From Astropecten irregularis (Eukaryota; Echinodermata; Asteroidea; Paxillosida; Astropectinidae): a stretch of DNA of 64,000 nucleotides. The notes beneath the pieces are model-generated. The model had not been told where the DNA came from, made no database searches, and was given only the letters and a program-made list of their open reading frames with translations. Numbering within the stretch: position 1 is the stretch's first letter; the number at the start of each line of letters is the position of its first letter. Position numbers and translations under genes: made by a program. The stretch lies in contig OZ020244.1 in assembly GCA_963971285.1 (NCBI GenBank), positions 16,678,001-16,742,000 on the forward strand, in the 5' to 3' direction. Below, one piece after another: positions 13,450 to 34,314 of the stretch.

Positions 13450-13622
13450 GACATATATGCTCCCTGCATTTTACCAGTTCATTATTTCTCAACTTTTATA
13501 TTAGTAATTTATAAGTCACACCCCACTATCAATTCAAGGTAGGAAAGGTTTTATCAAGATTGTCTAGTATGAGGAGACTTTGCCAAAATAGGCTTTCATG
13601 GAATTGACCATGTCCTTTTTCC

Positions 13623-13637
13623 GTAACGCGAGTTACC
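13623..13637 (+). repeat. GTAACGCGAGTTACC, copy 7
   Basis: An exact copy, 10 bases beyond an internal TGGAATTGACCATG that resembles the element's ends. Confidence 0.9.
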
Positions 13638-13800
13638 AAAATTAAACGAGCCACGATTCACATTATGCATGTCCGATGTTTTTCTTTTATGATTAATTTT
13701 GTTAGTCTATGTCTACTTTATCCATGGTGAAAAAAGTAACCTGTAGATCCTAATGATGACTGAGATATAGGTACATTATCCTAAAATGTACCCATTATTT

Positions 13801-13815
13801 GTAACGCGAGTTACC
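13801..13815 (+). repeat. GTAACGCGAGTTACC, copy 8 at the element end
   Basis: An exact copy joined directly to the right inverted repeat (GTGGAATTGCCC). Confidence 0.9.
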
Positions 13816-13926
13816 GTGGAATTGCCCATTTGTCAACTTGCATAATTTGATCAGTCACCCAAATGCGTATTTAAGAATTATGCCATGATCTGACATGAAT
13901 GCTTGCCTAAATGTAAACTGAAACAT

Positions 13927-14286
13927 TACAGGTAATATCATACTTTGGTTTTTTAAAAGAAATGCAGATTCGTGGGCAAAAACATCAAGACAGATACAGT
14001 AACAGTCATCTGTGAAATTCCCAATCCCATACCGTGCCAACTTTTTGGGAAAACAGGGAAAAACATCGACCATATCTTTTAAAAAATCTTTAAAAGGTCA
14101 AAAATTGTTTTGGTAATTGTTTATACTCTTTTCTGGATAAATACAGCATTTCAGGCAGAAACATTTGAACGGTATATTTCTACCATCACCATCTTTATAC
14201 CCAACCCTGTACATATGTAAGTTATCTAGGTAAATCTGTGAAGATTTCTATTTCGGTTTGCTAGCAAAGTATGATAGTACCTTTAA
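13927..14286 (+). mobile_element. Family A MITE, near full length
   Basis: The left end reads ACAGGTAATATCATACTTTG and the right end AGTATGATAGTACCTTTAA. The body matches the other copies through the CAGATTCGTGGGCAAAAA and TTCAGGCAGAAACATTT blocks. The copy lies just beyond the GTAACGCGAGTTACC element. Confidence 0.8.
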
Positions 14287-16558
14287 AAAGAAAAGAAAAG
14301 AGAATTCTTTCAACAATATCCCTCCCCTAATTACATTCGAAACTTTTATGATATTAAGGAAGATGTAAATTTATTCAAATTACCAGTTGTACGGTTCAAT
14401 GAGTTCTCTTGGGCCTTTGTATTGTGTGTTGGGGACACACAACAAAAGATCTATGTGGTGCATGCTCAATGAACATTGCCTGTCTACAGCTAGTCTACTG
14501 TAGTTGTATGCAGTATTACTGCTGGTGTACTGTACTATATATGTGTGTCTTCTACTGGTAAGTAGCAGTGAGGGTGTGGAATGAAATTCCTGTAAAAAAT
14601 CTGTTCATTACTGGTTTCTGTAGTGGGATAAGACCAGGGATAACCCACACCGCAGAGTCCTGTGTGAACAGAATTTTACTGAGCCAGTCTACATTATTGG
14701 ACAAGCTGTTCCATTCCTATCCCAACTCACTTAGCTATCAAACAAACATTATGAGAAGAACAGACTCACAATGCGACATCAGTAGAAACCATAGGCCTAC
14801 TATTTGCCCAAACATTAGCACAGACGGTACCGATGCGCATAAATCAGCTACTATGGCAACCACTGAATACCGGCCTGCATCAAATAAGTTGCCGGGTCTG
14901 TATATCACATGGGCACAGGCTAAACCAACAAAAATAAAAATCATATAAAAAAAAATCATTATGTTCACTAGCCGGCAACGACTGCCGACATGTAATTCAT
15001 CTCGGGGAAAAATAAAAGATTATTTATTTGACAGCCCTATTAGACGGCTGATAGGAATGCAATACACAAAGGCATATCAGAATACAAGCACCTGACACGT
15101 GCATGCATGCATACAAATGCCACATGTATGCACATGTTTACAAATGCGTATCGGCATATGTACATTATACATACATCTGTACATATGTACGTGTACAATA
15201 TACATACATACATGGGTGTACATGTACTGTGTATGTGTATACATGTAAACATGTCATGTGAACAGACAATGTATATTATTATGTCATTGTAATAACCCCT
15301 GACACCAAAATGCATCCAAAGTGCACAACTGTGGCGCGCAATGCACACATACAGTGCAGATCAATCCGCCATCATTACACATGCAGAGTACATATAATGG
15401 CAACCCTTGCTAATATTCATAATTTATGTGCCATTTTAGTTAACAGCCCACAATTGTCCCAAAAGTAAATTATTTCTGATCCGTGTGTGTACCCAGCAAA
15501 TATGGGCGGCTGCAAGCATTTTCTGTACTTCATTGTGAAATGGAGCAGCAATTCATTCGATATTTTTTCCTCTTTTTTTGGTTCAGGGTAGAGTAAAATG
15601 TAGCAAACACGTTGGGCTCAGAGGGACGAATTTGAAACTGCTGTTAATAATTCCTCTGGGTAACCACTGTGCATATATATCTTCTGTTTGCCAGAAGATA
15701 AAAAAAAAAAAATGCCAATGGGTGCATTATCAGTGAATAGGCAATATTTCATCGAAAAAGAAATTAAAAACAAAATATTAAAACGGAATTGAAATGCTGG
15801 ATACCAGTGCTTATATTAAAATTGGTACAATTAAATGGATTTTCCTAATGTTTATGAGCCTACAAATGAGATAGTGCGTGTGAATCTCTTCCATGGATTG
15901 TAGCGAGTCGAGTGATTAATTAAAACAATTAATCATGGGCCCCCATATATGGTAATCACATTATGAAGTTTGAATGGGGAGGCAAGTTTGTTTTCTAATC
16001 ATTGTAGCGCATGTATCCTTTAAAGGTATAGAGGTTATTCACCGACATCATAAAATCACGTGATTGGCCGTCAAGCTTGTCTATGGTGTCCATGGTTACC
16101 CGTAGGACACTGTGCGTTGCGTGTGCACTGAAGCATATTGTTGAGCGTGTGCAATCATTGTGCTTGACGGCCAAAGGCATCACGTGAATAACCTCTATAA
16201 GGCATAGGTACATAGAGCTACAAAAAGCTCTATCATGGGCATACTGACCGGAGACGGTACAGTATGTCGCATACATGTAATCACTCTAGAACATCATTTC
16301 ATCGTCATGTGTGAATACACACATCATTCATCCAATCATGAATTTTCATAGACACAAAGCTGCTCTTATGTCTAGAGAAGGAACACTGACCACCCCCGAG
16401 GCATTGCATCCCAGCTATGAGTGTCTGACCTTCATGTGATAGATCTGTGCCTAATCCAACAATGTCACAGTGACACGCTCATTGGATTCTGGGCCAGTTG
16501 GGGCTGATGACCGTGACAATCCTCAAGAAGACAAAGCTGCAAGATGCCTGGGTCATTC
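14287..16558. other. No gene; ACATGT-rich segment
   Basis: From about 15090 to 15270 the sequence is dominated by ACATGTAC, ATGCAT and TACATA alternations, giving purine-pyrimidine alternating DNA. CACGTGA-type motifs near 16056 and 16180 are part of an imperfect inverted arrangement (ATAGAGGTTATTCACC, CGTGAATAACCTCTAT at about 16028-16198) that may be a decayed MITE. Confidence 0.45.
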
Positions 16559-16561
16559 TTA

Positions 16562-16586
16562 GGGCGTTTACGAAACAGAGGCTCAA

Positions 16587-16662
<76 letters not shown>

Positions 16663-16863
16663 CAGCTCTGACATCCTTAATGCTGAAAATTTAGTATGTG
16701 TTGTTTAATTGAAACTGAAGTTATGTCTTCCTTTTCAAACTAGAGAATCTACTGCCGAACCGCAGACAAAAGCTTCTATTTTGATATCCGTTATTTCAGA
16801 ATGGAATCACGAAATGGAGCCAGAGCCTGAGACAGAGCCTGAGCCTCTGTTTCGTAAACGCCC
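16562..16863. mobile_element. PIF/Harbinger-like MITE with hexamer expansion
   Basis: The ends are perfect inverted repeats, GGGCGTTTACGAAACAGAGG on the left and its complement on the right. They are flanked by TTA at 16559-16561 and 16864-16866, the TWA target duplication of PIF/Harbinger elements. The left arm continues into 14 hexamer units. There is no transposase. Confidence 0.85.
16579..16662. repeat. (AGGCTC)14 microsatellite
   Basis: Fourteen hexamer units, one with a change (AAGCTC), begin within the left inverted repeat of the Harbinger-like MITE. On the minus strand they read Pro-Glu repeats, an open frame that is not evidence of a gene. Confidence 0.9.
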
Positions 16864-17429
16864 TTAGTCTCCCGAATCCTTCATTAGCATGCAATATTAG
16901 AAAGAGATCTTTCTTGCCGATTTGAGATGCATCCTATAAAGTTAATATGAACAGACCTTCAGGGCTTAATGTGAGTGAAAGTCAGATCCCCCCTTCCCCC
17001 CCCCCCCCCCCCCCCACCAACAAAAAGGGCAATGAAAGTTCCACAGCAGTTTTTGTCAAGTTGGAACATGTTCAAAAAAAGATGCAAACTTCAAAACCAT
17101 TGTTCTGATATAGATACTAGTCTGAACAAGTTGGCATCTACATGTGTGCACCATACATACATGTACACTATAATGTATACTTCTTTTTTTTCATTATTGG
17201 TTCCGCAAACATCAAAGCCCTCAAGCAAAACAAAGTTGCTTGTAGAAGTATTTCTACTCTACACTGAACTGTGCACATGTGCATAGAACTAGTTCTGCAA
17301 ATCACCTTGCTTAGTATACACAGATTAAAATGCACAATCCAAGATAGGAACTATTATGTACAAACCATGAATCCATGAACGCCTTTCATCAGAGAGGGTA
17401 ACCTATTGCGGGCAGAAATCCAGAGTCCC

Positions 17430-17635
17430 ATTTAGTTATAAAATGAGATCAAACTTATGAAACTTGGGCAGCATGGGGTCTGGGGCCGCACTAAAGGGCC
17501 TTCAACATTTAGATTAATCTAAATCACTCATGGGGGAAAAAGGATAAATGAACGAAGTGGGATTAGAACCTGCAACCATTGGGTTGCTGTGCTAGTCCAC
17601 TCCCAACTGAGGTATCCAGCTCTATGTTGGCAGTG
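17430..17635 (-). mobile_element. tRNA-like SINE, minus strand
   Basis: The minus strand reads TACCTCAGTTGGGAGTGGAC (box A-like) and GGTTGCAGGTTCTAATCCCA (box B) at tRNA spacing. It lacks a clean acceptor stem, so a SINE is likelier than a functional tRNA gene. Confidence 0.55.
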
Positions 17636-17700
17636 TTCCATTCAAATTGTCATTCGCCTTGATTTTAGGTTAGTCAGAAGAAAAAAAAAACACACTCTAA

Positions 17701-17833
17701 GGCGGTGTCCCAATTTTCAGGCTGCGACCGGAAAAAACTATGGAAATGGCTGCAGTCACTAGCTATTGGCTGCCATAGGTATGTGGTGTGCGTAATTTGC
17801 AGCCACAGCCAGAGATAGAATTGGGACACGACA
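17701..17833. mobile_element. Small MITE with GTGTCCCAATT ends
   Basis: GTGTCCCAATT (17705-17715) and AATTGGGACAC (17819-17829) are inverted, with weaker complementarity on both sides. The exact limits and target duplication are unclear. It lies in the Cav1 AT-AC intron, about 135 bp past the donor. Confidence 0.6.
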
Positions 17834-17957
17834 TAAGTACTTCCAATGATCGATAACTGAAAATGAAAACTGGCAATCTTATCATTTAGACACAATGCTC
17901 ACAGTTTGTTTAAAAATACAATTAAAAGAAATGACGCATTCCAATGGGAATGTTTTT

Positions 17958-17967
17958 AAAAGGATAT
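17958..17967 (-). other. U12-type (AT-AC) 5' splice site of the Cav1 intron
   Basis: Immediately after the second base of the EWK lysine codon, the minus strand reads ATATCCTTTT. This is an exact match to the minor-spliceosome AT-AC donor consensus. No GT donor lies at the point where homology to the channel family stops. Voltage-gated sodium and calcium channel alpha genes are known to retain minor-class introns, which fits. The matching branch site and AC acceptor should lie at lower coordinates, possibly outside the window. Confidence 0.85.
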
Positions 17968-18271
17968 TTCCATTCGACAATACTGATGCACATCCGTCGC
18001 AAAGGGTTGTCCAACGTAAGGCAAAAGAGCGCCCTCGGAGGGCGCAATGTAGTTCCTGAGTGTTGTTTCTTCTTATTATATGTATTCCTTCTACGATTCA
18101 TGGTGGAGACTGTGGTAGTGGCCGCCAGCGTGGTACGCCAGGCCGAACTAAGCGGGGCACCGCCGGTTGGCTTGTCGGAAGGGGCGGTGGTGGTCGGGGT
18201 TGGGGTGCTGGCACTGCCGCTAACGTAGGTTCCACTACTGGCTGCAGCAGACGCCACATTATTATGGACTC
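17968..18271 (-). CDS. CACNA1: Cav1 (L-type) calcium channel alpha-1 subunit, N-terminal exon (partial gene)
   Basis: This exon encodes part of the cytoplasmic N terminus of the pore-forming subunit of a high-voltage-activated calcium channel, up to the start of transmembrane segment S1 of repeat I. It is 304 nt and reads about 101 codons. A Ser/Thr/Ala-rich stretch is followed by a basic patch ([12 protein letters not shown]) and then the family signature [17 protein letters not shown] and CISIVEWK. From memory, human CACNA1C has QRKRQQYGKPKKQ, RPPRALLCLTLKNPIRR and ACISIVEWK in the same order. The acceptor is a pyrimidine-rich run ending in TTTTGCAG (AG at 18273-18272, minus strand). The first two bases, GA, complete a split codon. 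The exon ends inside the EWK lysine codon, where ATATCCTTTT begins; reading on gives non-homologous residues and a stop. Cav1 is favoured over Cav2 because [11 protein letters not shown] and CISIVEWK fit L-type channels best. The initiator exon and the downstream S1 exon were not found. It lies divergent to DCP1. Confidence 0.93.
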
Positions 18272-18370
18272 CTGCAAAACAAACAAACAAACAAACTGGC
18301 AATGTTAGTAACGTTACATTCGATCACACTACTGTCACAGGTTTAAGATACTGTACTGTACCACTCCTAA

Positions 18371-18630
18371 CAGGGGCCAATAATTTCATAGAGCTGCTTA
18401 AGCACAAAATTTGCTTAAGCATGAAAAGTCTTCCTTGATCAATCAGGATTACCAACCAAATTTTCAAGTAATGTTTACAGCTTTTGACTTGTAATCGACC
18501 ATTGTTTGCTACACACTGTAAGCTTAACATTCACAAGGGGTTTTGGCTGCCACACTGATTTTATTTACTACGGTTTTTGTGCTTAAAAGCAAATTTTGGT
18601 GCTTAAGCAGCTATGGAAAAATGGCCCCAG
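18371..18630. mobile_element. Family C MITE
   Basis: CAGGGGCCAATAATTTCATA at the left and TATGGAAAAATGGCCCCAG at the right are inverted. The subterminal repeats GAGCTGCTTAAGCAC and GTGCTTAAGCAGCTATG form a second inverted pair. It lies about 100 bp upstream of the Cav1 exon. Confidence 0.8.
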
Positions 18631-19069
18631 GTAGGCAGATCTGGCCACATTCTGATTTTGTTCTTGAAACGATGGCACGGCTACAGTTACAGTACCAGCC
18701 AAGGGGCAGATCACAAGACGAAATCGCACACACGAAGATACATGGTTTTTGCTGGTTGGGGGGGGATGCTTACTGCTTACCAGAGAGCATAGGTCTATTT
18801 AGTGGCCCCTCCAGGCCCCCTCTAAAAACAGGCATGTGGTCACACCAAATACAAATAGGCAGGTATACATATATGCACAAATGAGTGTGCTAATGAATTT
18901 GCCTACAGAAACCATTACAAATGTAAAACACAATTTTAGATTGTTTGAAAATGACAATTTTGTTACTTTGGTTATTCGTTCATTACAGGACATGTAGGAT
19001 TGGTATCGGAAGCTGGTGTCTATTTCTATGGTAACTGGTAGTCAATTTTAAATAAAATTTTCTCCACTT

Positions 19070-19195
19070 CTGATGATGACTAGAGCACTAGAGCAGGCTG
19101 GTCGAAACGTTGAGACCTAACCAGAAGTGTGACGAAATAAGAAGTGCCGATGTACCAACGAATATTACATGGTGTTTCCACAAACTGATCCACCT
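19070..19195 (+). repeat. Hammerhead-like repeat (family H), copy 1
   Basis: CTGATGATGACTAGAGC, a hairpin, then CTGGTCGAAACGTTGAGACC. CTGATGA and GAAAC flank a stem of GACTAG against CTGGTC, like the catalytic core of a hammerhead ribozyme. The copy ends near ATTACATGGTGTTTCCACAA. Penelope-like elements are known to carry such motifs in their terminal repeats. A cleavage-site stem was not identified. Confidence 0.55.
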
Positions 19196-20640
19196 ACATT
19201 TCCACTTGAGCATGAATCACATGAATTCAGTTTCAAAAATTTTGATTTAAGTTTTTATAAGTGGGTTCAAAGTAAACCTAGGTGATAGGTATATCCATCT
19301 GTGTTGATGTATATCGCCATATTATTCACCAGAAAAAAAAAGGGGGAAATAAGATTTTAGATGATATTATAATTTACATACAGTGCAGTATTACTGCACG
19401 ATTCCTGTGTTTGTCAAAATCTATTCAATTTCTAATGCCGGATCAACTATGTGACAATCAAAATTGCATGCCGTTTCCATGACAAAGCCCTGAATAAAAT
19501 TATCACAATCAAACTGCCCACAATGACAAGGGGAAATATGCAGGAAGGACAAGGTCATATTATAACTGTTCACCTGGACGCATCGATATTGAATAAATCT
19601 GTTAGGTAAGATCAGAGCAGATTTTCACACTAGTATCCAAATATCCAATCTACTGTAAATTAATCTCAATTTCCTAAATTGTCTCCCCCCAACACAGAAA
19701 TGTATTCAATTATTAAAACAATATTTAATTATTAAAACAATATTTACTATACGGACTTTACAAAATGATTTTTCCCCAAAAATACTACCAGTTTGATGAT
19801 CATTTCACCAATGACACCAATTAATCATTATAAAAATATAAAATTTCAATACATATTTTGCCAGACATGGCCTAAAACTGTTAATATTCCTTTTTCATAT
19901 TAAACATTTACAAAGGCCCTGCTGGGATCAAACAGCAAGATTAATTACCAAATATTACAGTTTTGGACGATGTAAGTTACTTATTATTAAAATCACTGAC
20001 CGTAATTTGTGATAAATTTACATCAGTGATACTGATAACCGATTCAGAAATCTATTGTGTACACGCATACTTAGGTTAATAAATATAAATCTGTATTCAC
20101 TGAGTAAATGTATGCCAAAGTTTTTGATGTTTTTATTTTGCTCAAATGTTACAATTTTATAGTTGAGCACAGGTATTTGTGTGTATAGAATGCCTATAAC
20201 TACTGTAGTGTCAAAATTATATACACGTACTTCAACAAATTTCTTGAAAATAATTTTGTAAGAATAGAATTATTTTTTAGAATCAGAACTTTCAATAATT
20301 TCAAACGAGGCAATCATCAAATCCATGCAAGTATCTTCAAGAAAATTAATTCTGAAGATAAAAAAATCAAATCAATCAATATTGTAACCAGTGCAGACAC
20401 TGCTTTTATTTTGACAGATCTAATATGCAAATGACCTCAATTTGGGTAAGGGGCCCTCCGTAAGCCAATACTGTGCTCCAAGTGTACAATTAGCTGCATA
20501 TTTCAATTGTTATGACATCATTATTTTAGCCCCACTGGCATTATGACGTGAATGCGACTTAGGTCAGTCTCAGAAATGCCAATTAAGCACAGAGAAATCA
20601 AACCTTAGGATGGACTTTGAAAGATTTCAGTGGATTTAGG

Positions 20641-20790
20641 TGGGAAAAAATAATAAAATAAATAAATACTTGCGTTTATTACGCGCCTTTTCTTAAAGTT
20701 ACAAAGCGCGGGCAAAACAACATAATCAGAAATACAGAAACCAACCAAAAGTGAATACTGGTTTCCAGATTATTAGGCCTATACCACAGT
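20641..20790 (-). mobile_element. LINE- or SINE-type 3' tail
   Basis: On the minus strand GCGCTTTGTAACTTTAAGAA and GGCGCGTAATAAACGCAAG run into an ATTT-rich tail. This resembles the 3' ends of CR1-like elements. The body upstream (to about 20960) is too decayed to assign. Confidence 0.45.
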
Positions 20791-21132
20791 CAAGTCCCTT
20801 TTAACATATCACATATAGTTGAGCGAATCGATCTAGTTTGGCCATTACAACAAATATCACCATTTATAAGCCAACATATTAAATTTTTCAGACAATTTAT
20901 TCCACGGCCATCTGATATTATGCGTTTGGTAGCAGAGTGGTGTTAGAATTTATTCAGAAAAAGTGAATACCTATTAAAGGTAGGCCAATGACAACATCAA
21001 CAAAAACACCTTAAAAACAAATTAAGAAAATCTGAGAAAAATTAATTTAATCCTCTAAAACAACACCATGATTCTTCATTATAAATGTGAAGCTTCAAGT
21101 TCAACCCTACAAATACAAAACATAATTACACC

Positions 21133-21180
21133 ATGGAGAAATAAGACACATTATTAACTCCATGTGTCTTATTTCTCCAT
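21133..21180. repeat. Perfect 19-bp hairpin with 10-nt loop
   Basis: ATGGAGAAATAAGACACAT (21133-21151) and its exact complement (21162-21180) flank a 10-base loop. A 9-mer ATTACACCA occurs on both sides (21125-21133, 21182-21190), like a target duplication. It lies in the Cav1-DCP1 interval. Confidence 0.85.
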
Positions 21181-22105
21181 GATTACACCAATTCAAAACA
21201 AATTGGAAACAAATTAAACAACTCAGTGCCATTTTATTTAGAATGAACAGCCTCTACAACAAAGATGAGAATTATCTGTTTAAAAAAACACCCTATGTTA
21301 ACAGTCTACGATGATCAAAAACTGAGGAAAGAACAACTAGGCCTACCATTCTAACTTGCATATCAAATTTCAAACTTCAGATTTTCGCAGACAGAGTCCA
21401 ATCAATTTTGAAGCCATTGAAATATTATGCAAATGAGTCGAAGACTGCACCATTTGGTAGAAATTTATACCATATTTAGTAACAAAAGATCAAAAGAGTA
21501 CGGCTTAAGGCAACGTGGAAACAATCCAACACTAACCAAACGAAAGACACACACAGCACGCGTTTAAAAACCAGTTGCCTCTAAAATGCTCAAAATTCTC
21601 CCCAAAATATCCACCTCCCAAAATACAATGCAGCAATATGCTGACAACAACAACAAAAAACAGACGACCAAAGCCGCACCGTTACTCGTTAAAAAAATAC
21701 AAAGAAATCGTATTGTGTTTTACCCGTTCGATAATTATCCATGGCTCCGGTCTATGGGTGGGAAAAAGGGACGAAAAAAAGGTTGATAATTCCACAAAAA
21801 TTGCTCAGCTAACTGTCCTGATCCTCAACGTTGCTCCATGTTTATATCGTCTTCTTATGAATGACACGTACTATAGTAATAATGTGTTGTGTACGTTTAC
21901 GTCCATCGCGTGGTACTGAATGCACTGCATGATTGTGTGTGTTATGAATGTGATGCAGTTTTGTACTGTAGTGATGCTGCCATGCGTTAAACCTATAGCA
22001 CATCCGGGTACTCTTTTCAATTTTTGCTCTTGCCATTCCAAGAATACCTGAGATTGATGATGTTGCCACTAGCTCAGTGAGATGGTATATAGAGATATAT
22101 ATATA

Positions 22106-22118
22106 AGGTCAAAGGTCA
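22106..22118 (+). promoter_or_regulatory. Perfect DR1 nuclear-receptor element
   Basis: AGGTCAAAGGTCA is two exact AGGTCA half-sites with a one-base spacer, the preferred site for HNF4, COUP-TF and RXR dimers. It lies between the Cav1 and DCP1 genes. Function is not shown. Confidence 0.35.
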
Positions 22119-22469
22119 CAACAATCTTACAAGGAAAGATAATTACAACACTGGGTGCGAGTAAGGCTTGATCAGTAATGGATGGATGTATATAATGATG
22201 ACAAAGGATGATAATTATTATTCTCCACGGCAACGGCGAGATGGGGTGGATGAGCCATGCATGCAGTCGGCCTGAAAATAATAATGATAGTGATGAGGAT
22301 TTATAAGGATTATGACTGGCCACGGATAACATAAATCACGTTGGTGATTTTTAACGGTATAATGTTGTTGATGAGCTAGTCATGATAAATACGCCGGTCG
22401 TGCAAACGGTTTTCATTTTGTAGGGATGGTTCAACGATATTCATCAACGTAGAATGTATTCTAATAATC

Positions 22470-22811
22470 TTAAAGGTAATATCATACTTTGGTTTGTATC
22501 AAAGAAATACAGATTCACGGGCAAAAATATCAAGACATAACAGTAACAGTCATCTGTGAAAATTTCAGTCCCATACGGTGCCCACTTTTTGAGAAAATAG
22601 TGAAAAACAGCCACAGTATTTCTTAAGTCTTTTCTCTTTTATTTTTGATCTTTTAAAAGAATAAAAAAGATTTTCGGTCGTTGTTTTACTAATTTCTGGA
22701 TAAATACACCATTTCAGGCAAAAAAACTTTAACGGTATGTTTCTACCACCACCATCTTCATACCCTGTAAGTTATACGTAAATCTGTGAACATTTCTGTT
22801 TTGATTTCTTT
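22470..22811 (+). mobile_element. Family A MITE, right end missing
   Basis: It starts TTAAAGGTAATATCATACTT and follows the consensus to AACATTTCTGTTTTGATTTC, then loses similarity before the right inverted repeat. It lies in the Cav1-DCP1 interval. Confidence 0.8.
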
Positions 22812-24259
22812 GTCAATTCAGAGATCACAATGAACTCATCGTGCGGGTCAGTCCCCGACCCTGCAAGCCTGGAGATTCGCGATATTCTCAACATCATTTG
22901 AATAAACATTATGAGAAATGTCGCCAAATTCAGATTTTGACATTTTAGGGGTTTATCGGCTATTTTCCAGCAGACATTGCTGAGCCTATAGTCCTATTAT
23001 AATTGAAACAGTGTAACGGTGCATTTATATAAATCCATATTTTTATCAATCGTGTACTACAGAGGTGCCGCCATTGCAGCCTGCATTGTGGGGAGACAAA
23101 TATCATTGATTTTGAATAGAGCGAGAGCAGACGCGCAATGTACTTCTCATCTCAGTAGCCATATCAAATTTCATCTCGTGAAAAATCGCCACATTCAACA
23201 CTTTTGTTTCAATTTCTGAAATCTGTTAGTCGGCACGCCTGCTTATCCCCAGTCGAATTCATTATCTGTCAGTGTTAACAGGTTTGAGGTGTTGAACCCA
23301 CACACACAACTAATTTGAAGCTTCAACGCCTCTGGCGGGTTTTTTTTTCTTCGGACGCCAAAATGCTTAGTGATGCAGGAGTAGTGCGCCACCACGCGTA
23401 AAGAAGAAAATGTTTGCCTTCAACCCTGTTCTGCGTGCCGCGCAACCTTTTCTAAAAGGTAATTTCTTATTGATTGTAATTGTACTGGTGCCAGTTTGTC
23501 GCTTCTTTTCTGGAAACAAGCCAGTATAAGGAGCCATTCGAGGTAGGCAATTTGACAAGCCAAGTCGTAAACGTTCTATGAGCACGATGTCTTCTTTCTT
23601 GCGGCAATACTCTAGGATCAAGTTGGAGTTTAAAGTGAAATTTGAAAAACCTCATTTTATCTTTGCCATTTTCAATCGTCGGTTGGTTCTCTTTGATCTT
23701 TTTTGCATCAAGTGTGCAATCCCTTTAATAAAAATTTATCAGGGCCTGGGATGGATTTTTTTTCCAAGAAAGATGAATCACAGCAACCAAAATGTCCTTC
23801 TTTTTTGAATGTTTTTAATTATATCTTGGGTATTTTTTTTTTTCAATCTATCAATCTATTTGAAATGAAATATTTATATTCAATATCTGATAATATTGAT
23901 AAAAGTCCCATTCCTTCCTAAATGTGTCTTTAACGGGCGATTGTTATGTCGTAATCTTAAAACAAAATAATGGAAAACTAGAATTGAATATAAAGGCAAT
24001 AAAACTGTTTAAAATAATGCTGTACCGAAAATGCTTAACACCCAGTATGTAAATTTATTTAATCTCTACTTTTACAGATTCGAAAGATATGTTCTAGTTA
24101 TCCAGTCATAATTTTTTTGTGGCTGATATGAAATCCAAATGAAAAATCAATACCATGGCTGACAAGACCTGACAACCAAGAACTGGTTGGTGACGCTCTT
24201 ACTATACTAGTCCTAATACGGTTACTGCACTGCCCATGTACTGTACAATAACAAACAAC

Positions 24260-24265
24260 CACGTG
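24260..24265. promoter_or_regulatory. E-box CACGTG upstream of DCP1
   Basis: A palindromic CACGTG lies about 75 bp before the DCP1 start codon, close to an AGCGCCCTCT motif (24281-24290) resembling part of a CTCF site. Their position in the presumed core promoter is suggestive, but a 6-mer is weak evidence. Confidence 0.3.
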
Positions 24266-24337
24266 CGTTTGTTTTGAAACAGCGCCCTCTCTTGAATGCA
24301 ATGAATTCCCCCACCGAGCGAGCCACAAGAAAGAAGC

Positions 24338-24348
24338 AAGATGGCGGC
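24338..24348 (+). promoter_or_regulatory. YY1-type motif overlapping the DCP1 start codon
   Basis: AAGATGGCGGC covers the DCP1 ATG and is an exact match to the extended YY1 motif. That motif commonly sits just downstream of transcription starts in housekeeping genes, and in-frame overlap with the ATG is a known arrangement. The start site would then lie a few tens of bases upstream, giving a short leader. This is sequence match only. Confidence 0.5.
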
Positions 24349-24475
24349 CGACAGTAAAGCCGAAAATCGTATGAATCTCGCAGCGCTGCAACAATGCGAT
24401 CCGTACATAACGAACATCGTCCAGACGGCTAGTCAAGTAGCCCTGTACACGTTCAACGCGGAGGGAAACGAATGG
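24341..24475 (+). CDS. DCP1: mRNA-decapping enzyme 1 (DCP1), coding exon 1
   Basis: DCP1 is the EVH1-domain cofactor that activates the DCP2 catalytic subunit in 5'-3' mRNA decay, in the cytoplasm and P-bodies. This exon gives 45 codons beginning MAADSKAENRMNLAALQ, then CDPYITNIV and SQVALYTFNAEGNEW. Human DCP1B, from memory, has ISLAALQRHDPYINRIV, SQVALYTF and ANEW, so the match is nearly residue for residue. The start is supported by an in-frame TGA at 24302-24304, a purine at -3 and G at +4, and by the length of the family's N terminus. The exon ends in phase 0 at a consensus donor (TGG then GTAAGT). One paralogue type cannot be assigned: the sequence resembles DCP1B slightly more than DCP1A, as expected for a single pre-duplication gene. 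Local base composition is richer in CG than the surrounding introns. Confidence 0.95.
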
Positions 24476-25848
24476 GTAAGTTGGACGTCGGGAAAAGGGT
24501 TGAATTTGTTCTGTTGTTGCGATGCGAATTACAAAGCATGAACTTGAAGCAAGCACCTGTGACCTGATCATTACATGTGCAATAGTACATGCTGTGACTG
24601 TATTGCTATTTGCATTGTGTACCAAGACGTGCATGTGTGTAACAACGTTGTAGTGAAGCTGTATATAAACTGTAGTGTAGTGTACTGCACATACATGCAG
24701 TACTATGCACACACTTTGAGTGCACCCATGCTAGTAGTACTAGTAGTAGGCTTGCTACATTTGTTCACAGTTTAAACTCAGTGGCGCATTGGCAATGAAT
24801 GAACATTTGTTTTTGCAGAATGTCAACTCAATCATGTTTCTAAACTTATTTAACTTTCTACAGTTGATCAGGATCAATACATTTGTGTATTACTCCTACT
24901 TCTAGACTAAGCCTCCTTCTTCAGCCTTCTTTTTACAAATTTTGTGTAGGCCTAGTCCTATTACTTTTCTGGTTGCTATACAATTTGTGAAAACCATGGA
25001 TCTATTAATTAATATGGGTTTTGTGATAAGAAGGGATCCCCAAAGACATTGATTTTTTTAGTCCTTAAATAGCTTCTACTCCTCAAAAATGATACTTTTG
25101 ACATTCAGCAAATATGTTCCTGGGTCCTTAAAAGCCTGGATTGAAGAAATTTGTGCAACATTTCAGTGTAAAAATTCAATTTTTGTACGTGCTTCTTGCA
25201 AAGTTGAAAACAGCCCATCTAATCGCGTGAGACCATTTTGTCTGGTCTGGTTAGTCTAATGCCCGGACTCAACAGATCAAGAGTCTTCAAAATGTCAGAA
25301 GGCCATTTCCCATGCCACTTGACCAATCTCGGGGGTGGAAACCAGACTATTCTTGTCTGCGGCTTAGGCCCATATATTGTCAAGTAGAAAATGTTGAAAA
25401 CAGCATGATTTCCGATCGCGATTGCACGTGTTTCACCATTGCATGATTGCAACGTAATGTTGCAGTCTATGCATAACGCATGGACATGGAGGTTAATTAC
25501 ACTGTCTGTGTAACATTACCTGAAGTGCGCGATATATTTGCATGGCTAGATAGCGACAACTTTATCACCACATTACTGAACTTGACTCCTCTGAATCCCC
25601 TTAAAATTCAAATGCTCTTTGCATCTGCTAGAACTTGGCTGTAAGTACAATTATTTGCGGCAGGTTTGGGTTTTTCCCGCTAATGTAACTCAATGATACA
25701 CCCTGCTCATTTGCAGAGGTTTAAACCTCATAAATCAGCACTTTGTTCAGTCTTTTCACAATCCCAACTGTGCACCTGTCTAATGGATTGGCAAAAGCTA
25801 ATTTGGGATGGGACAGTCTTTTGCCACAGGAAGAAATTCACGTATTTG

Positions 25849-26110
25849 ATTTACGTATAACTTACAGGGTATGAAGATGGTGGTGGTAGAAATATACCAT
25901 TATAATTTTTCCGCCTGAAATGGTGTATTTATCTAGAAATTAGTAAAACAACAACCGAAAATCTTTTTGATCTTTTAAAAGATCAAGAATAAAAGAGAAA
26001 AGACTTAAGAAATACTGTGGCCATTTTTCACTGTTTTCGCAAAAAGTGGGCACCGTATGGGACTGAAATTTTTACAGATGACTATTATTGTATCGTCCTT
26101 GATATTTTCT
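25849..26110 (-). mobile_element. Family A MITE body, both ends lost
   Basis: In reverse orientation the stretch matches the family A interior, from ACGTATAACTTACAGGGTAT to GATGACTATTATTGTATCG. Neither terminal inverted repeat is present. It lies in DCP1 intron 1. Confidence 0.75.
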
Positions 26111-26678
26111 TATTATTCCACCCCTGTTTATACTTTGTATGTTGGACCCGTGATTTGGTACTAATTGACAAAAAAAGTGCAAGAAAATTGACAGATCTGC
26201 ACTGTATTTGATAAACAAATGTACAGTAACTGCTAAAATGCATGAAGGATCACAGAGTAATAGCGCCCTCTGTTGATTTTGATTCTTCAGTTCTTTGACA
26301 AAATGAGGCCATTCTTATCCATTTGTACAGAAGTGCATGGTATCAGGTTGCAAATTGTATTTGAATGGATGTAGGAAACACATTTTAAAGGAATAAAACC
26401 TGAATCCATGAAAATCCATCATCTTCACTTGTGGCTCAATCAAAATAATAATTCATATCCATTACATGCCTCTTCTGAATGTACAATTTTCTTGACAAGA
26501 AACCTTAATGGATTCTCTACTGTGCATTCCTGAATCCATCAAAATCCATCGAAATCCAATGGCTTTTAGCCTTTTAGTCTTTTAGTGTCCCACTCTAGAG
26601 TCTCAAAACGATGGAAATATGGACTGCTTTATTTATATTTTATATACAGCCTAGTTACTGATCCACTCATACCATAGA

Positions 26679-27113
26679 GCTATATTAAAATTACTAGAGT
26701 GCTAGCTCCGTGTACAGAGTGATGCCTGCTGGGCGCATCCATGTTTGTGCACAAACACAAAATTGTGTACGTTTTTTGTACGTTCATATGCAATCTGCGT
26801 TGTGTTCTACATGTATACAGGTGCGTTATCGAAGCCAAATGTACGCACCTCCGACAAATGCACGTTTCATTTTGCACAGTCCGCGTACACGCACTGCACT
26901 TCAGTCACGCAATGATTGCAAGCATCATCAAGATGAGCTACCGGTACCGTTCGCGCAAACTTGCGCGTTGCATATAGAGTACACTCTTCGAAAGGCATTC
27001 CAGTTCTTGTTCCACAGACACGCACACAATTCAAAATGACTGCACCCAGGACGGCTTCAAAGCGTCTACGCATGGAGATAGCAGAGCTAGTGCTCTAGTA
27101 ATTTTAATATAGC
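26679..27113. mobile_element. 435-bp MITE with TAGA duplication
   Basis: The 30-bp ends (GCTATATTAAAATTACTAGA and onwards) are inverted with two mismatches. TAGA flanks both sides (26675-26678, 27114-27117). The interior is unusually rich in CG and GTAC compared with the surrounding intron. The superfamily is not recognised. Confidence 0.82.
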
Positions 27114-27653
27114 TAGAACTGTGACTCGTACTGATAAGTGCTGGGCAAAATTGGGTAATTTCATATCCGGTTACTGATTGCACAAAAAATCAGGTCAACG
27201 GTTAATCTACGTAATCACATGTGCAACGTGTGTGATTTATGGTACATCATCTACAATGTGATCGTCGCTTGCAGATTATACTTTTTACGATGTTATTCTT
27301 TAGATCAAGCATTTAGATCAAGTACACAATGTTTCTGTTCAAGACCCATTATGTGAAAAGCGTGTTTCTACAAGTTGGCAAAATGGACAAAATAACTGAC
27401 TGAAATTCTACAGTTTACACTTTTTGTGTTGTTGAGCATGAGCCAAAGGTTTGTCGTTTTTTTTCCTTTCAGTTTCGGCCATCGGTTAGTAGAAATTTGT
27501 AATCGGATAATTAAATCCGGGTCGGTTAAAATCTCTAACTGGATAAAAATCCCAGCACTAATACTGATTTCATTCATGACCACATGTATACATGTTTGAA
27601 AGTATTTGTAATTTGTGTGTACAATTTGTGGTTCTTTATCTGTTTGTGTTTTT

Positions 27654-27782
27654 TTGTCATTTAGCCTTTGAGAAAGATCCTGCTAGGATCGAAACGCGTC
27701 AGGCCCTCCTAACTTTAAGCATTTGATATATTTCAGGTCATTTTGGCTGATGAGCAGTTTGCAGCAGTTTATTACTTGTATT
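27654..27782 (+). repeat. Family P repeat, single copy
   Basis: TTTGAGAAAGATCCTGCTAG then GATCGAAACGCGTCAGGCCC and a tail ending GCAGCAGTTTATTACTTGTA. It lies 80 bp before the acceptor of DCP1 exon 2. Confidence 0.82.
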
Positions 27783-27819
27783 GTTCTTTATCTGTTTGAA
27801 GTGAAGGTAGACAGATCAT

Positions 27820-27847
27820 TTTATTTATTTATTTATTTATTTATTTT
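27820..27847. repeat. (TTTA)n microsatellite next to the exon 2 acceptor
   Basis: About six TTTA units end 15 bases before DCP1 exon 2, within its pyrimidine-rich region. Confidence 0.85.
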
Positions 27848-27862
27848 TGTTGCTTCTTACAG

Positions 27863-27903
27863 GAGAAGACAGACATAGAGGGGAGCCTGTTTGTGTATGC
27901 AAG
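27863..27903 (+). CDS. DCP1: DCP1, coding exon 2
   Basis: This 41-nt exon follows a TTGCTTCTTACAG acceptor and is followed by a GTAAGC donor. Joined in phase 0 to exon 1 it reads EKTDIEGSLFVYA plus AG of an arginine or serine codon. Human DCP1A and DCP1B have EKTDIEGTLFVYRR and EKTDVEGTLFVYTR here, in the EVH1 domain. The exon is too short to appear as an open frame by itself and was found from the expected continuation of NEW. It ends in phase 2. The expected next segment (a SASPxHGFTIxNRL-like sequence) was not found downstream in this window. Confidence 0.93.
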
Positions 27904-28671
27904 GTAAGCAAGCTTCATTTCTTTTTGTTCACCACATACAAACTCTTGTATCAATATTTCACTTGATGGCATGACTGTGCATGCAGCCATTCACAGTATA
28001 GCTCCCTCTTGTGGCCAAACTTGGCAAGTGTTTGTATGAACTGATCTTTTCAGTGATGTTCACTTTTGATCAGTGTGGGTTTTTTTTTGCACAACAGCAA
28101 TGTAACTAGTGATTTCGTCTCCCAGATTGCAGGGGAGGAAGAATATGGAGTGGACAATGTTTGACCAGTGTGGGCATGATTCATTAGCAGTGGAATTTTG
28201 TAATTGTTTGATGTGTTTTACGGGTTTAATGAATTATTTTTCTAGTATTCTTTTTCATCTCTATATATTTGTGTTCACATTTGAAAAGTAGAAACATTTG
28301 AAACTCTGTAGGCAATAATGATTAAAATATTTTTTAAGTTAAGTAATAAACTGCTACAAACAATTATTTTTGGGAAAATTGGTAACCAGAAAAAATCACG
28401 GTAAGCCATGTTGCTCGAGACATTTGAACCTGATTTTGTCTTCCATGTCTAGTACTTTAATATTTTTCTTCTGAAAGTGTCTTTTTTGGTTAGATTTCCA
28501 ACATATTTAGGGTAAAAAGCAATGATTGAACTCATTTGATAAGGTTGAGCACTGTACATTGGACAAACAAAGTATGTACAGTAGACATACATGGAAGAAT
28601 ATACATATTACAGTATCCACAATTGTTATTACAAGCAATCATAAGGACCTGACATCCCTCATTTCAATCGT

Positions 28672-28808
28672 CTCCTGATGAGGACTAGTCACTAGAGCAG
28701 GCTAGTCTAAACATTGATACCTCAATACGAGAAGTGCAGACGATATAGAAGTGCAAAAGTACAAGTTGATTCTTACATGGTGTTTCCGCAGACCGATCCA
28801 CATATTAC
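28672..28808 (+). repeat. Hammerhead-like repeat (family H), copy 2
   Basis: CCTGATGAGGACTAGTCACT, then GAGCAGGCTAGTCTAAACAT. The GAAA element is changed to TAAA. It ends near TTACATGGTGTTTCCGCAGA. Confidence 0.55.
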
Positions 28809-29334
28809 AGTATTCTTATTAGTGATTTATTTGGGGTCAGGCAACTGGAAGATTTATTTGCGCTTTTTTTGCTTCAGTAGGATCTTTTACACTCATGAAG
28901 TATTAAGATTTGACATTTCACTCAAAATGAGGGTGGGGCGAGGGCAAATTGGGGCCGACGTCTTGTGGATAAGAGGGGAGGATCAGAAACTGGTGACTAG
29001 ATACAGTACATAGAGTATTAATGTATCAAGCATCTAGCTATGACTATATCAGTCTCATTGTACTCCTACATCAATCTTCTGCCTCCATATCAATGGCCTG
29101 CCTATGGCCTGCACAATCTCCCACATTAATCTTCTGAAATGAAGACTTGGATCGTGGTTCATTTCACAAACATGACAAAGAGGTAACAAAAATAGAAGAA
29201 CCACTCAAATATGTATTTGATTGGTAGCTTGCGCGTGGGGTCTGTAACTCTGATTATATTGTTCTTAATAAATGGACGAAGCAATTTTCCCTTCGGTAAA
29301 GGACACGTCATTGAGATGCTGTTACATGTACATA

Positions 29335-29465
29335 GGGTGCGTTCGTTTAGCTTCCACAGGGCAGCCCTGACCTGGGAATAGTTGTGTATTCTGCACAAAA
29401 CAACCGAGAGGTTTGGGTTGCGAGATTGACTGATGTCGACGTGTGCAAACTAAATGAACGCACCC
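29335..29465. mobile_element. 131-bp MITE with GGGTGCGTTC ends
   Basis: GGGTGCGTTCGTTTAG and CTAAATGAACGCACCC are inverted repeats with one mismatch. The GGGTGCGTTC terminus recalls hAT or Harbinger MITEs, but no clear target duplication is seen. Confidence 0.75.
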
Positions 29466-30689
29466 AAAGACTCACTGTAACATTCAAAGGGCAGCAAGGT
29501 TGTGAACAGGGGTACCTTGGCAGTCGCATTTTGATGCCTCTGTGAAGTTAAGATCCATGCTTGTTGATAGCTCGACAGTTCAGCAATTCAATTGAATGCA
29601 AAATAGAATTAGTGTGTCCGGGCGTATCTTTGTAGCGACCCTTTGTGGGATACAACACCTGCCGAGCTACAAATTACAAATTGACTACAAACACGCAAGC
29701 TTCACAAACGGGCCAGGAAACTGCCACATCCACTCAGTTGTTCATCAAGTTCCAACCCTTCCCTTCCCAACCCCTATCTCGTCATTCTGTTTTGTGCAAT
29801 TTGTAGCTTGTTAATACACGGCCGATTAGTTTGGTCATCTAATTGTAGATGCACACTGGCAGCGAGCAAGGTGACTGGCCTGTTAATACCTGTACAAGTT
29901 GAGGTCAGTGCCATCGGTGATGTCAACCCGCACACCTCTTGGTGTCTCAATCAATCACTACGTAATTACTGCCGTGATATCAAAACGTAACATTTAATTA
30001 CGGCCGGGGAAGGGTTTGGGGAGGGAAGGGCTGTTGATGGTGACGACTTGACAAAGAATTTATCAAACTGAACTTTGGACTTGTCTGTTGTTCAGTTGGA
30101 GAATCGATTTTGAAATTAATAATCAAGATTGATGTGATTACTATCCACACCCTGTCTGCGCTGATTAATTTAAGGACAATCTTTCGCAATTTGTTTCATA
30201 AGCTAGGGGTAAATTTCATTTATAAGGCTTGTGTTCACAAAGTCTTTGCTAAGCATGAGAATTTCTTACTTGGCGAAATCAGAATTCCCAGCAAAAAAAA
30301 ACCTCTTGTGGTTTAGAAGCTGGCCCTCTATTGATTGCAAGGAGATAGTTTAAGTAATGCATCAACAATTGGGAACGTTGCTATAGTTTTCTATGATTCT
30401 GATTGTCTGATTCTTATAAACTTGTTATCTTTAGAGACAATAATTCTGAATGAATAATATATACATTGTTTGTTCACTATCCATTACCTGACTTAATTTT
30501 ATGTCTTAAATTGACAAGCTTATTTGCATGATTCACAGAATGTTTAGCTTGAATGAAGTCTGACAAATCTGGCAAATGCAATGCTGTGAGGCTGTAACTT
30601 TGTGTTATTCTCTTCAAGTGTATGATTGGTGGATCTTAGTGCATATTTTGTACAGCGGATTGCTGTTTCATCTACATTGGGTTGCTCTG

Positions 30690-31098
30690 GTCTGGTGTGT
30701 TGTGTTGTATGTACTCATGGTCTTGTGGTCAATCTACAGATTGTGGGTTCGAGTCCAGCCATGGGCTATTGTTGCTTGCATCCTTGGGCAAGATGCTTTG
30801 TCACATATTTGCTCCTCTTCACCCAGGCGTTAATGGATACCTCCCCTGTGAGGGTTGAGTTTGATCAGCCTTTTTGTGCTTTGCAGCAGCAGGAAGGGGG
30901 CGGGGCCTGTATTTATCCCCAGATAGTTGAGATTGTTTCATGAATGTAGATGTAGCCCGATGGTCAGGGATAATAATAATATGCGCATAGAGACATCTGT
31001 TGTAATGCGCTGTATAAATTTGTAATGCGCAGTTTAGTATATTGATATAGTAGCTGTGCAATATAAATATCCATACATGTACAGTATTATTATTCTTA
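30690..31098 (+). mobile_element. Second SINE family, longer copy
   Basis: The box B is GTGGGTTCGAGTCCAGCC (30742-30759). The central domain CATCCTTGGGCAAGATGCTT matches the copy at 1491, and a GTAATGCGC-rich 3' part ends in TATTATTATT. The 3' GCGC motif suggests mobilisation by a CR1-like LINE. Confidence 0.75.
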
Positions 31099-31175
31099 CA
31101 TGCATGCCAAATACACACGTACCATTTTCAAATCATGGCTGAATCTTAAAATTAGACATGTTAATAATATCTCTC

Positions 31176-31305
31176 TATCCTGAGGACGACTAGCGCACAC
31201 TGGTCGAAACGTCGAGAATCCACTCTCATCGGTCCTTTTTAGGACCACACATCTTTCTAAAAGAGATTTATGATACATGGTGTTACCGCAAGTCTTACTC
31301 ATTCT
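31176..31305 (+). repeat. Hammerhead-like repeat (family H), copy 3
   Basis: CCTGAGGACGACTAGCGCAC, then ACTGGTCGAAACGTCGAGAA. A second short hairpin (GTCCTTTTTAGGAC) follows. It ends near ATACATGGTGTTACCGCAAG. Confidence 0.55.
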
Positions 31306-31869
31306 AGTCTCTCCACCATGCAAAATGTCAAACCTTACTTAAATATACATGTGTTAATGCTGAGTATGACATACATCATATTGCTAAGTGAAATGATAAC
31401 CCACACAAGACTTTTCGGATCCCGGAGGTTTAAACAAATCCAGAAGTCATAGCAGTCCAACTACAATGAAAAAATTGGTGCTTCATGGCTTGTTTGATGT
31501 GCTTAGCCCGGATTAGTTACTAGAAACAAGTATCCCCTTCTGACCCTAGATTCTCGAGTGGATCGCTTCTCTTTGCCCTCAGGCTGTGAGACTCTGTGAG
31601 AGGGCAGGTGGGCCAAGCCAGTTAATAAATGTAGCTCTCTGAAACGAGATGCTGACTTGACTCTGTGAAGAATCCACCACGGACGTATGCATGTCAGGTT
31701 AACTCAGGTATCACGTACGTTGTGCGTGTACATGAAGATGATGAACTTACTGTCGCTGAGGCTTCTTTCTGAGTTCACTTCAAAGTTCACTCCGAGCAGC
31801 ATTGAGTTCTGCTCTCTTGTTTTTTTCTTTTTTGGTTTAATCTCCAAATTGTATCGTATGAAGCCAATA

Positions 31870-32087
31870 GGCCTTTTCACACGACGCTAAAAAAAACTCT
31901 CAACCATTGAGAAATTCTCTCATGGGTCTGGTCCTTGGTCTAAATCTCTCAAGGATTCACCAGGGACGTCGGTCACTCTCAAGCATTGGTGTCCTTTCAC
32001 ACGATGACACTTTTGTATTAAGATTTTGCAACCATGAGAGAATTTCTCAATGGTTGAGAGATTTTTTTAGCATTGTGTGAAAAGGCC
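31870..32087. mobile_element. 218-bp MITE with GGCCTTTTCACAC ends
   Basis: The inverted ends extend about 55 bp, from GGCCTTTTCACACGACGCTA through CTCAACCATTGAGAAATTCT. The flanking triplets are ATA and TTA, an imperfect TWA-type duplication. The long arms contain their own small palindrome (CTCAACCATTGAG). Confidence 0.82.
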
Positions 32088-32090
32088 TTA

Positions 32091-34314
32091 AGTGGTTTTC
32101 TTATTCAGTGTGATATTTTTCAAAGTTTGCTCACAGCTGAAAATTCCCCCCCCCTACTCATGCCCCACGAATGATGGATGATAGAGACTCTTGAGAAAAA
32201 AATATAATAGAAAATATTTCCCCAGTTAGGGGGTCCGTTGCCTTTAATGGCCATTGTACTTTCTAAGGCTAAAGACCCCTGGCATACATGATAAATAGAC
32301 TTGAAGCATTCAGTCTGTGCAAGATGATCTGTCCTTTATGTTACCATTGTGAGAGAGGAAATATTTTAAAGGTTTGGAAGTTACGCGAATAGGTTAAGAG
32401 TATTAAAGCGTATTGTTGCAAATCCTGAGCCCTTTCTAATTTTCAAAGGTCATAGTATTGCCGTGGAAGTAAAATGGTGAATTAGAACCCTTTTTATTTG
32501 AGCAAAAGGAGAAAAAATGGAGGAGAAATATAAAAGAAGAGGTGGAATTGGAGAAGGGATGTGACCTTTTAATTCTTGTATCAATTGCATCGGTCTTCGT
32601 GCGGGTATTAAAATGCCTGCTTGGGAAATGCAAGCCGGGACATTTTGATTTTTAGACTTGCTCAGGAGAAGCTTGCCGTCCCCCCTGCTGTGAATCGTGA
32701 TGTCTAGTTGGCCCCTCGTTCCCGTCACGTCAGTCTCTTCACCCTCCAGTGACATGTCTGAGCCGACCAATTTTCTGATTACGCACGTTCCCATTTTGTT
32801 CGGGTAATTAATCTTTAATTACGTCGGCAGCCGGTAATCAAATCTCCCGACTTCAGACAGGCGGAGAATCCCCAGTCCAGGGACTTCACCAACACCAGGA
32901 CAGTTTAAGAGACTCTCTCTACTGTTTTGATTTCAAGGCCTCTTGGCAGCTTAATAATAATACCAGCTTCTCATTTCAGCCCCTTAATTTGAGTTTAAGA
33001 AACGAGGAGAATCTCAAATTTTGCTTTCTTAATTTGTTGGATTCGTGAGTGTGCTTCTTCACGCCCCTAAGCACTATATATCTACATACAGTTTTTCAGA
33101 TTAACCAGACAATCAGTCATGTGCTTCTCCCCCATTGCCTTAGAACCATAATGCAAGAATTTCAATTTGATGTGTATTTATTTTTTTATTGAGCGAGGGG
33201 AGGGGGGGGGGAAAGAGAGGCTATCCTGAAGTGGCTCCTGATAAAATAAATAAAGGTATTTCAAATTTAATTTTGGATTTAATTGCAGGGCTTCTATTCG
33301 GAACCGGATGGAAAATCAGTACTTACACTGTATTTTCTTAATGCACGGCAGAACAGTATTTCCAATTCTTACTGTTTTAATAAGGTAGATGAATTGCCTT
33401 TTCAGTATTCGGGCACTTTTAGAACATATCCTTTATTTTCTGGCCTACAAGCGCTTACCAGTGTTGAAGTACAAAAAAAAATTGATTTTGTGAACAATTT
33501 ATTTGCCAGCTGGTGGCCAACTTGCTGTAAAAAAAAGAGAACAAGGAAAAAAGTGACCATCATTAAGAAGAAGTTTTTTATACAAATTTTAAAAATTCAT
33601 GTCAGGAAAATGGAACTGAATCTTTGAAACAGCGTATGGTTTGTCTCTGATTGTGTTTGTTTACCCTCATATTGCAAATTACAAGAGAAAATGTATGAAT
33701 ATATTCTGGTTGGTCAAGTCGTCACCATATGGCCACACCTGTCCCAGAGTTAGTAGCTGACCGTTATGGCCACCACGGTTGGTGAAATTTCAAGATTGTT
33801 TGCAGAAATCATTCATATGAGCCTCATTCATATTGCTGTTCTTTATTATTGATGAACATGAATATGTTTTTTGATTAGGGTGGGTAATAAGATTGTCACG
33901 ATGAAAGGTATACATTAATATCAAATAATCAGGATACAAGATAACATTAGCTCAGGTCTAATAAGCAGAAAACTCCCCTCTCCCAATCGTAGTAAAATCT
34001 TGCCGTAATTGAACGGCAGTATACACCATATTCTGAGATGAGTTCAGGTACCGACTTTATGAAAGTCTGAACACACTGTGCCGGCCCTGTAATCCTCTAA
34101 GAACAAATCTGCAGCTTAATGCCATGTCACATGTGCCGTTATTCATTGAATATTGACGTTGATTGACAGCAGGTCAGCTAACTTGGCCCCTCCCCACCCC
34201 CTCCCTCTCCCCAAATACGTCCAACTCCAAGAGAACATCTTCTTGACACCAAAAGCATAATATTTGATTTGTAACACCTATTGCTATGAGGATTTTTGCA
34301 TGAATCGTTGAATC
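32091..34314. other. No recognisable feature
   Basis: Unique-looking intronic sequence with a G-rich run near 33195. A minus-strand open frame at 32450-32794 has no recognised homology. Confidence 0.4.

Follow-up and report, generated by a model that had tools for sequence, protein, structure and literature searches.

A Cav1 gene and a DCP1 gene lie head to head

We analysed a stretch of 64,000 nucleotides from the sea star Astropecten irregularis (contig OZ020244.1, positions 16,678,001 to 16,742,000 of the forward strand), hereafter the window, within which all coordinates are counted. It contains the 5′ ends of one Cav1 gene, encoding an L-type calcium channel alpha1 subunit, and of one DCP1 gene, placed head to head. 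Cav1 lies on the minus strand and DCP1 on the plus strand, so that the two are divergent and their 5′ ends face each other. This layout, with a Cav1 exon and the DCP1 start exon pointing apart, was proposed in a first-pass annotation and is borne out by the positions of the exons, their open frames and splice sites, and their matches to PDB and Pfam.

On the minus strand, Cav1 coding exon 2 (18271..17968) was identified by tblastn and PDB comparison, together with its acceptor and phase, and encodes the last part of the alpha1 subunit's N-terminus. A human CACNA1C segment aligned here by tblastn with E=1e-16 and 63% identity over 60 columns, overshooting the exon end by 19 nt and reaching 17949. 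The peptide obtained by joining this exon to the candidate exon 1 described below matched Cav1.2 (E=1.7e-14), Cav1.3 (1.3e-11) and Cav1.1 (1.3e-8) in PDB. In total, 9 of the 12 PDB matches up to E=1 were to these L-type channels, every one with E≤0.0022, and the remaining three were to TRP-gamma and single-strand-binding proteins with E≥0.25. No Cav2, Cav3 or Nav channel was among the 12, and since the credible matches are all Cav1, a Cav2 or Nav identity for this exon is ruled out. A Pfam scan of the same peptide returned no calcium-channel family and a single match (E=0.93) far under the cut-off, presumably because the channel domain starts in exon 3, outside the window. The four six-helix domains of such a channel would be encoded from exon 3 on. 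The exon follows a good acceptor, ttttgcag, its frame is open, and its coding sequence finishes with AA after the last full codons.

Two features within or at the border of exon 2 are known from L-type channels. The first is an NSCaTE motif, x-W-xxx-L-xxxx (18114..18143, minus strand), which agrees with the published form x-W-xxx-(I/L)-xxxx; the Met2 codon stands four residues beyond it (18099-18101, minus strand). Both the motif and the downstream Met2 have been described for L-type channels (PMC3634016; this and the other papers cited are drawn on here in excerpt, and what is said of them holds for those excerpts). The second is a U12-type (AT-AC class) 5′ splice site, ATATCCTTT (17959..17967, minus strand), directly after the exon. 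It opens a minor (U12) intron that precedes the first transmembrane segment and whose acceptor and branch site fall outside the window. Two copies of the nonamer are present in the window, where 1.0 would be expected by chance; it is meaningful only through its place exactly at the end of Cav1 exon 2. The L-type channel junction at the matching place is often AT-AC (PMC3634016), Cacna1c has a minor intron 2 at the matching position (PMC8767276), and most mammalian sodium- and calcium-channel alpha genes contain two U12 introns (PMC2831892). The sea star gene is like the L-type channels described in PMC3634016 in having NSCaTE and Met2 in exon 2, an AT-AC junction and, probably, a separate start exon. 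Cav1 exon 2 here combines NSCaTE with a U12 donor.

On the plus strand, DCP1 coding exon 1 (24341..24475, MAADSKAENRMNLAALQQCDPYITNIVQTASQVALYTFNAEGNEW) ends at the donor GTAAGT, and coding exon 2 (27863..27903, EKTDIEGSLFVYA plus AG) is bordered by a pyrimidine-rich AG and by GTAAGC. Both were identified by tblastn, frame and splice sites, PDB and Pfam, and the frame across the joined exons is open. The peptide contains the N-terminal EVH1-like DCP1 domain (Pfam PF06058, E=8.8e-19, 68 bits against a cut-off of 22.5). The match spans profile positions 2-52 of 117, so the window covers the domain's first half only. In PDB the peptide scored about equally with DCP1A (4b6h, which we take to be human; E=1e-17, 66.2 bits) and with ‘Decapping protein 1’ (2LYD, presumably from fly; E=5.6e-17, 63.9 bits), and it thus does not separate deuterostome from protostome. 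With the whole human DCP1A as a tblastn query, no credible exon was found in the window beyond exons 1 and 2, and the C-terminal trimerisation domain was not seen there.

One short string, GCGCCCTC, occurs five times over both strands of the window against 0.7 expected. Read by eye, two of these places are in Cav1 exon 2 (about 18029-18045, one per strand), another is just 5′ of DCP1 exon 1 (24281-24288), and one is in DCP1 intron 1 (about 26263).

Spacing and the Cav1 start exon

The first-pass annotation placed the two genes about 6 kb apart. This is correct for the distance between Cav1 exon 2 (18271) and DCP1 exon 1 (24341), which is 6.07 kb, but it leaves out the probable Cav1 start exon. 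We ranked all phase-compatible (phase-1) ATG-to-GT candidates between the genes with Kozak and donor weights and no donor cut-off. The first of the 98 candidates is a predicted coding exon 1 at 21742..21724 (minus strand), which would encode MDNYRT and supply the G of a split glycine codon. Its Kozak context is strong and its donor weak (1.6 bits); it was missed by a first scan that demanded at least 3 bits of the donor. The sum of 6.0 bits compares with 5.9 for a rival first coding exon at 18835..18781 (minus strand, MPVFRGGLEGPLNRPMLS), in which the donor is stronger and the Kozak context weaker. We regard 21742..21724 as the probable start-codon exon of Cav1. If this exon is correct, 2,598 bp separate the two start codons, and the ATG-to-ATG distance of the pair is thus probably about 2.6 kb. 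A Cav1 first exon of another kind, overlapping DCP1, is possible.

Long second introns and integrity of the genes

Two exons of each gene are present, and tblastn found neither Cav1 exon 3 nor DCP1 exons 3 and 4 in the window. The search was controlled with mutated copies of the human exons, planted at about 50% identity and scored at E≤0.01, a design that presumes that exons 3 and 4 are not further split in this species. All 20 planted copies of DCP1 exon 3 and all 20 of Cav1 exon 3 were recovered, as were 16 of the 20 copies of DCP1 exon 4. The best real matches were at E=0.19 (16 residues) for DCP1 exon 3, E=0.39 (20 residues) for DCP1 exon 4 and E=0.086 (12 residues, on the wrong strand for Cav1) for Cav1 exon 3. 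By these controls, a hidden, undivided exon 3 in the window is ruled out. Unless exon 3 has been lost or is in very small pieces, Cav1 intron 2 is therefore at least 17.97 kb long, with a part of it at 1..17967 (minus strand), and DCP1 intron 2 is at least 36.1 kb long, with a part of it at 27904..64000 (plus strand).

Retropseudogenes, which the first-pass annotation had named as a threat to its reading, are not what these exons are. Both genes have introns, intact frames and intact splice sites, and one exon ends in a U12 donor; neither Cav1 nor DCP1 is therefore a retrocopy. A different possibility is that one or both exon sets are a duplicated 5′ fragment rather than a working gene. The presence of only two exons per gene, when an undivided exon 3 would have been detected, is what such a fragment would look like. 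Against it, every start codon, frame, phase and splice site, the U12 donor included, is intact, both genes head toward the edges of the window, and the window is without any N. We consider a duplicated fragment very improbable.

The linkage in other animals

We take the two human pairs, CACNA1C/DCP1B at 12p13 and CACNA1D/DCP1A at 3p21, to be head to head as well. They differ from the sea star pair in being two duplicated copies. That CACNA1C is the neighbour of DCP1B, as the first-pass annotation stated, is confirmed by a gene list for 12p13.33 in which LRTM2, DCP1B and CACNA1C are consecutive (PMC8303811), although the excerpts are silent on strand. The adjacency seen in the sea star is thus shared by the human DCP1B-CACNA1C pair, for which Micro-C in human stem cells shows that a single-nucleotide polymorphism (SNP) locus in CACNA1C contacts DCP1B, both with enhancer marks (PMC10172764). 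For the other pair, a risk SNP has been placed within a putative CACNA1D/DCP1A promoter region (PMC6679227).

Across animals, the two genes belong to a published microsyntenic group. A survey of 49 genomes (Robert et al. 2022, PMC8851819) lists a multi-species block, number 953 or the Wnt5-7 block, composed of wnt5, wnt7, fbxl14, atxn10, erc1/2, cacna1d, cacna2d, ninj1/ninj2 and dcp1a/dcp1b. Its gene density is low in most surveyed bilaterians and was inferred to be low already in the bilaterian ancestor. The pair in the window resembles this block in its cacna1d and dcp1a/dcp1b membership, its age and its low gene density. It differs in that blocks in the survey need at least three genes, may include up to five intervening genes and need not be collinear; adjacency and orientation are not required, and the excerpts hold no head-to-head statement for Cav1 and DCP1. 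The block list consequently shows that cacna1d and dcp1 are linked, not that they are adjacent and head to head. A scan of 8 of the 284 open reading frames (ORFs) listed for the window identified no other member of the block, with every Pfam score under its cut-off; both introns continue beyond the window edges.

Other papers touch parts of this picture. The WNT5/7 block has been traced to the nephrozoan ancestor, with neither cacna nor dcp1 found in the excerpts of that study (PMC9750109). The Wnt5a and Wnt5b neighbourhoods are duplicates, DCP1 not being shown in the excerpts (PMC2922100). CACNA1C, D, F and S derive from one ancestral gene through two vertebrate genome duplications, with DCP1 unmentioned in the parts used (PMC3826523), and a further paper names DCP1 genes, in the text drawn on, only in an interaction list (PMC7205035). 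The earlier proposal of one ancestral linkage that was copied with the vertebrate duplications finds its backing in these papers, in the animal-wide linkage (PMC8851819) and the origin of the L-type genes (PMC3826523). On that published basis, an ancient Cav1-DCP1 linkage, later duplicated in vertebrates, is probable.

The linkage itself is already in print and is not new as a kind. In the excerpts that gave the block listing and the human adjacency we found no statement of a conserved head-to-head orientation of Cav1 and DCP1, and the two genes appear there only within a larger block to which both belong. The present locus adds an example at base level, with exon borders and spacing.

Candidate promoter signals between the two genes

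The stretch between the two start codons, one of them predicted (21743..24340), retains CpG, with an observed/expected ratio (o/e) of 0.87 against 0.59 for the whole window. This is the highest value among 24 non-overlapping windows of that size, and 27 of 1229 overlapping windows reach it. Within the spacer, the ratio ranges between 0.52 and 1.32 over windows of 300 bp. Where the genomic average is middling, a stretch that keeps its CpG resembles an unmethylated promoter region of an invertebrate whose genome is partly methylated. Just 3′ of DCP1 exon 1, at 24600-25199, the CpG o/e falls to 0.11-0.29, against 0.65 for the whole of DCP1 intron 1; gene-body methylation possibly starts there.

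At the DCP1 end of the spacer, a motif that we take to be YY1-like (AGATGGCGGC, 24339..24348, plus strand) overlaps the DCP1 start codon, and the pattern AnATGGCGGC has only this one match in the window. At the Cav1 end, a candidate TATA box, TATAAAC (21840..21846, minus strand), has an initiator-like TCAG 25-28 nt downstream and lies 104 nt before the candidate Cav1 ATG. A TATA-initiator pair within the last 150 nt arose in 1.65% of 2000 first-order Markov simulations, for a pair that was picked after looking. The Cav1 strand of the spacer holds three such pairs, the others being at 22194 and 23031, against 0.43 expected. CTCF-like sites (10 against 4.8 expected) are too weak to use. A copy of a dispersed repeat, described below, also lies within the spacer (22488..22811, plus strand).

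The head-to-head layout and the CpG retention of the spacer would fit a single bidirectional promoter through which Cav1 and DCP1 are expressed together. Bidirectional promoters are usually recognised by transcription start sites within about 1 kb, and the predicted start codons here, 2.6 kb apart, lie beyond that usual distance; the spacer moreover contains the repeat copy, and the two candidate core promoters seem to be of different types. A preprint on cortex and ovary describes an enrichment of contacts at the human chromosome 12 locus and suggests coexpression (PMC12486068), whereas the authors of the block survey see no coexpression constraint on the Wnt5-7 block (PMC8851819). A shared promoter thus seems unlikely.

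Possible reasons for the retention of the pair

The explanation that we tentatively place first is that Cav1 control DNA in or beside DCP1 keeps the pair together, with DCP1 as the bystander of a genomic regulatory block. Each gene would have its own promoter, TATA-less and CpG-retaining with a YY1-like motif for DCP1 and TATA-type for Cav1. Regulatory DNA for the tissue-restricted Cav1 would reside in the spacer as well as within the introns of DCP1, a broadly expressed gene. A break in the pair would then separate Cav1 from its elements, and for this reason the pair would be retained. The DCP1 intron 2 of at least 36 kb, the low gene density of block 953 and the human CACNA1C-DCP1B contact (PMC10172764) all count for this explanation. 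In the view of the survey authors, the Wnt5-7 block is consistent with a regulatory block of wnt7 and atxn10 whose elements lie in the introns of the bystander (PMC8851819). The Cav1-DCP1 pair is like wnt7-atxn10 in setting a long-intron gene of broad function beside a tissue-restricted gene, a likeness of layout.

Several points weigh against control DNA in DCP1 as the reason. The candidate Cav1 start exon is predicted from sequence, as is each of the two promoters, and only one of the three TATA-initiator-like pairs in the spacer lies near that exon. Long introns, being frequent in large genomes, are no proof of anything. The survey names wnt7-atxn10 and not Cav1-DCP1, and requires neither adjacency nor orientation (PMC8851819). 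Finally, in a human splicing quantitative trait locus it is CACNA1C DNA that bears on the splicing of DCP1B, the reverse of the direction proposed here (PMC10172764).

The same DNA is also what a genuine old pair would look like if it were kept passively, breaks in a short spacer being rare and selection for linkage absent. Nothing in the window demands a regulatory tie, and the long introns, with repeat copies on both sides, look like ordinary large-genome DNA. Blocks as a class do exceed chance, since 256 were counted as new for the bilaterian ancestor while shuffled genomes gave 45, 48 or 56 (PMC8851819), a comparison that is silent on this pair alone. Passive retention is a real possibility, if a somewhat less probable one. 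Nothing in the window decides between the reasons for retention; we infer that passive retention stands close behind regulatory DNA and that a shared promoter is less likely than either.

If the linkage is regulatory, as in the explanation placed first, the introns of human DCP1B and DCP1A become places to seek control elements of CACNA1C and CACNA1D. In its widest form, the proposal would make Cav1-DCP1 a regulatory unit of bilaterian age, with Cav1 elements inside DCP1 in invertebrates and in both human copies, so that DCP1B and DCP1A elements would account for some of the psychiatric and cardiac risk signal mapped to CACNA1C and CACNA1D. This extension is speculative, and we think it rather doubtful.

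Repeats and other features of the window

The repeat found in the spacer is about 350 nt long and dispersed through the window. Its aligned stretches are at 2600-3060, 3950-4450, 13860-14300, 22380-22900, 25750-26250, 35380-35850, 40520-41000, 45200-45700, 45900-46280 and 62900-63600. Some copies start with or near TTAAAGGTAATATCATACTTTGGT and finish with ACCAAAGTATGATACTACCTTTAA, forming terminal inverted repeats bounded by TTAA, and we take the repeat to be like a miniature inverted-repeat transposable element (MITE) with a piggyBac-type target site. The copy in DCP1 intron 1 (25750-26250) has diverged at both ends and the spacer copy at one end.

DCP1 intron 2 contains three further features. 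A histone 3′ untranslated region stem-loop (Rfam RF00032) is found at 31226-31271 on the plus strand, with 36.4 bits against a gathering threshold of 34; histones compared with the window by tblastn gave two weak matches only, both away from the stem-loop. Neighbouring stretches of 82, 149 and 130 nt at 48226-48595 are repeated about 6.2 kb away at 54452-54795 with 98, 98 and 89% identity, which points either to a duplication of recent date or to a single element present in two young copies. The ORF at 61185-61559 (minus strand) looks by eye like the C-terminal end of the reverse transcriptase of a long interspersed nuclear element, with no Pfam family up to E=1.

Relatives of the window DNA were also sought in viral_contigs, where 34 and 327 pattern matches were obtained and none was confirmed. 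Two stretches, at 19100 and 31202, have GGTCGAAACGT in common, preceded by GA(T/C)GACTAG; the latter stretch has a hammerhead-like core, at 31180, which Rfam does not support. A tandem array with a unit of roughly 57 nt lies at 581-884 and 3643-3718, with GATCCTGCTAGGATCGAAAC in most copies, and sequence similar to this unit is found inside the repeats at 27647 and 53807.

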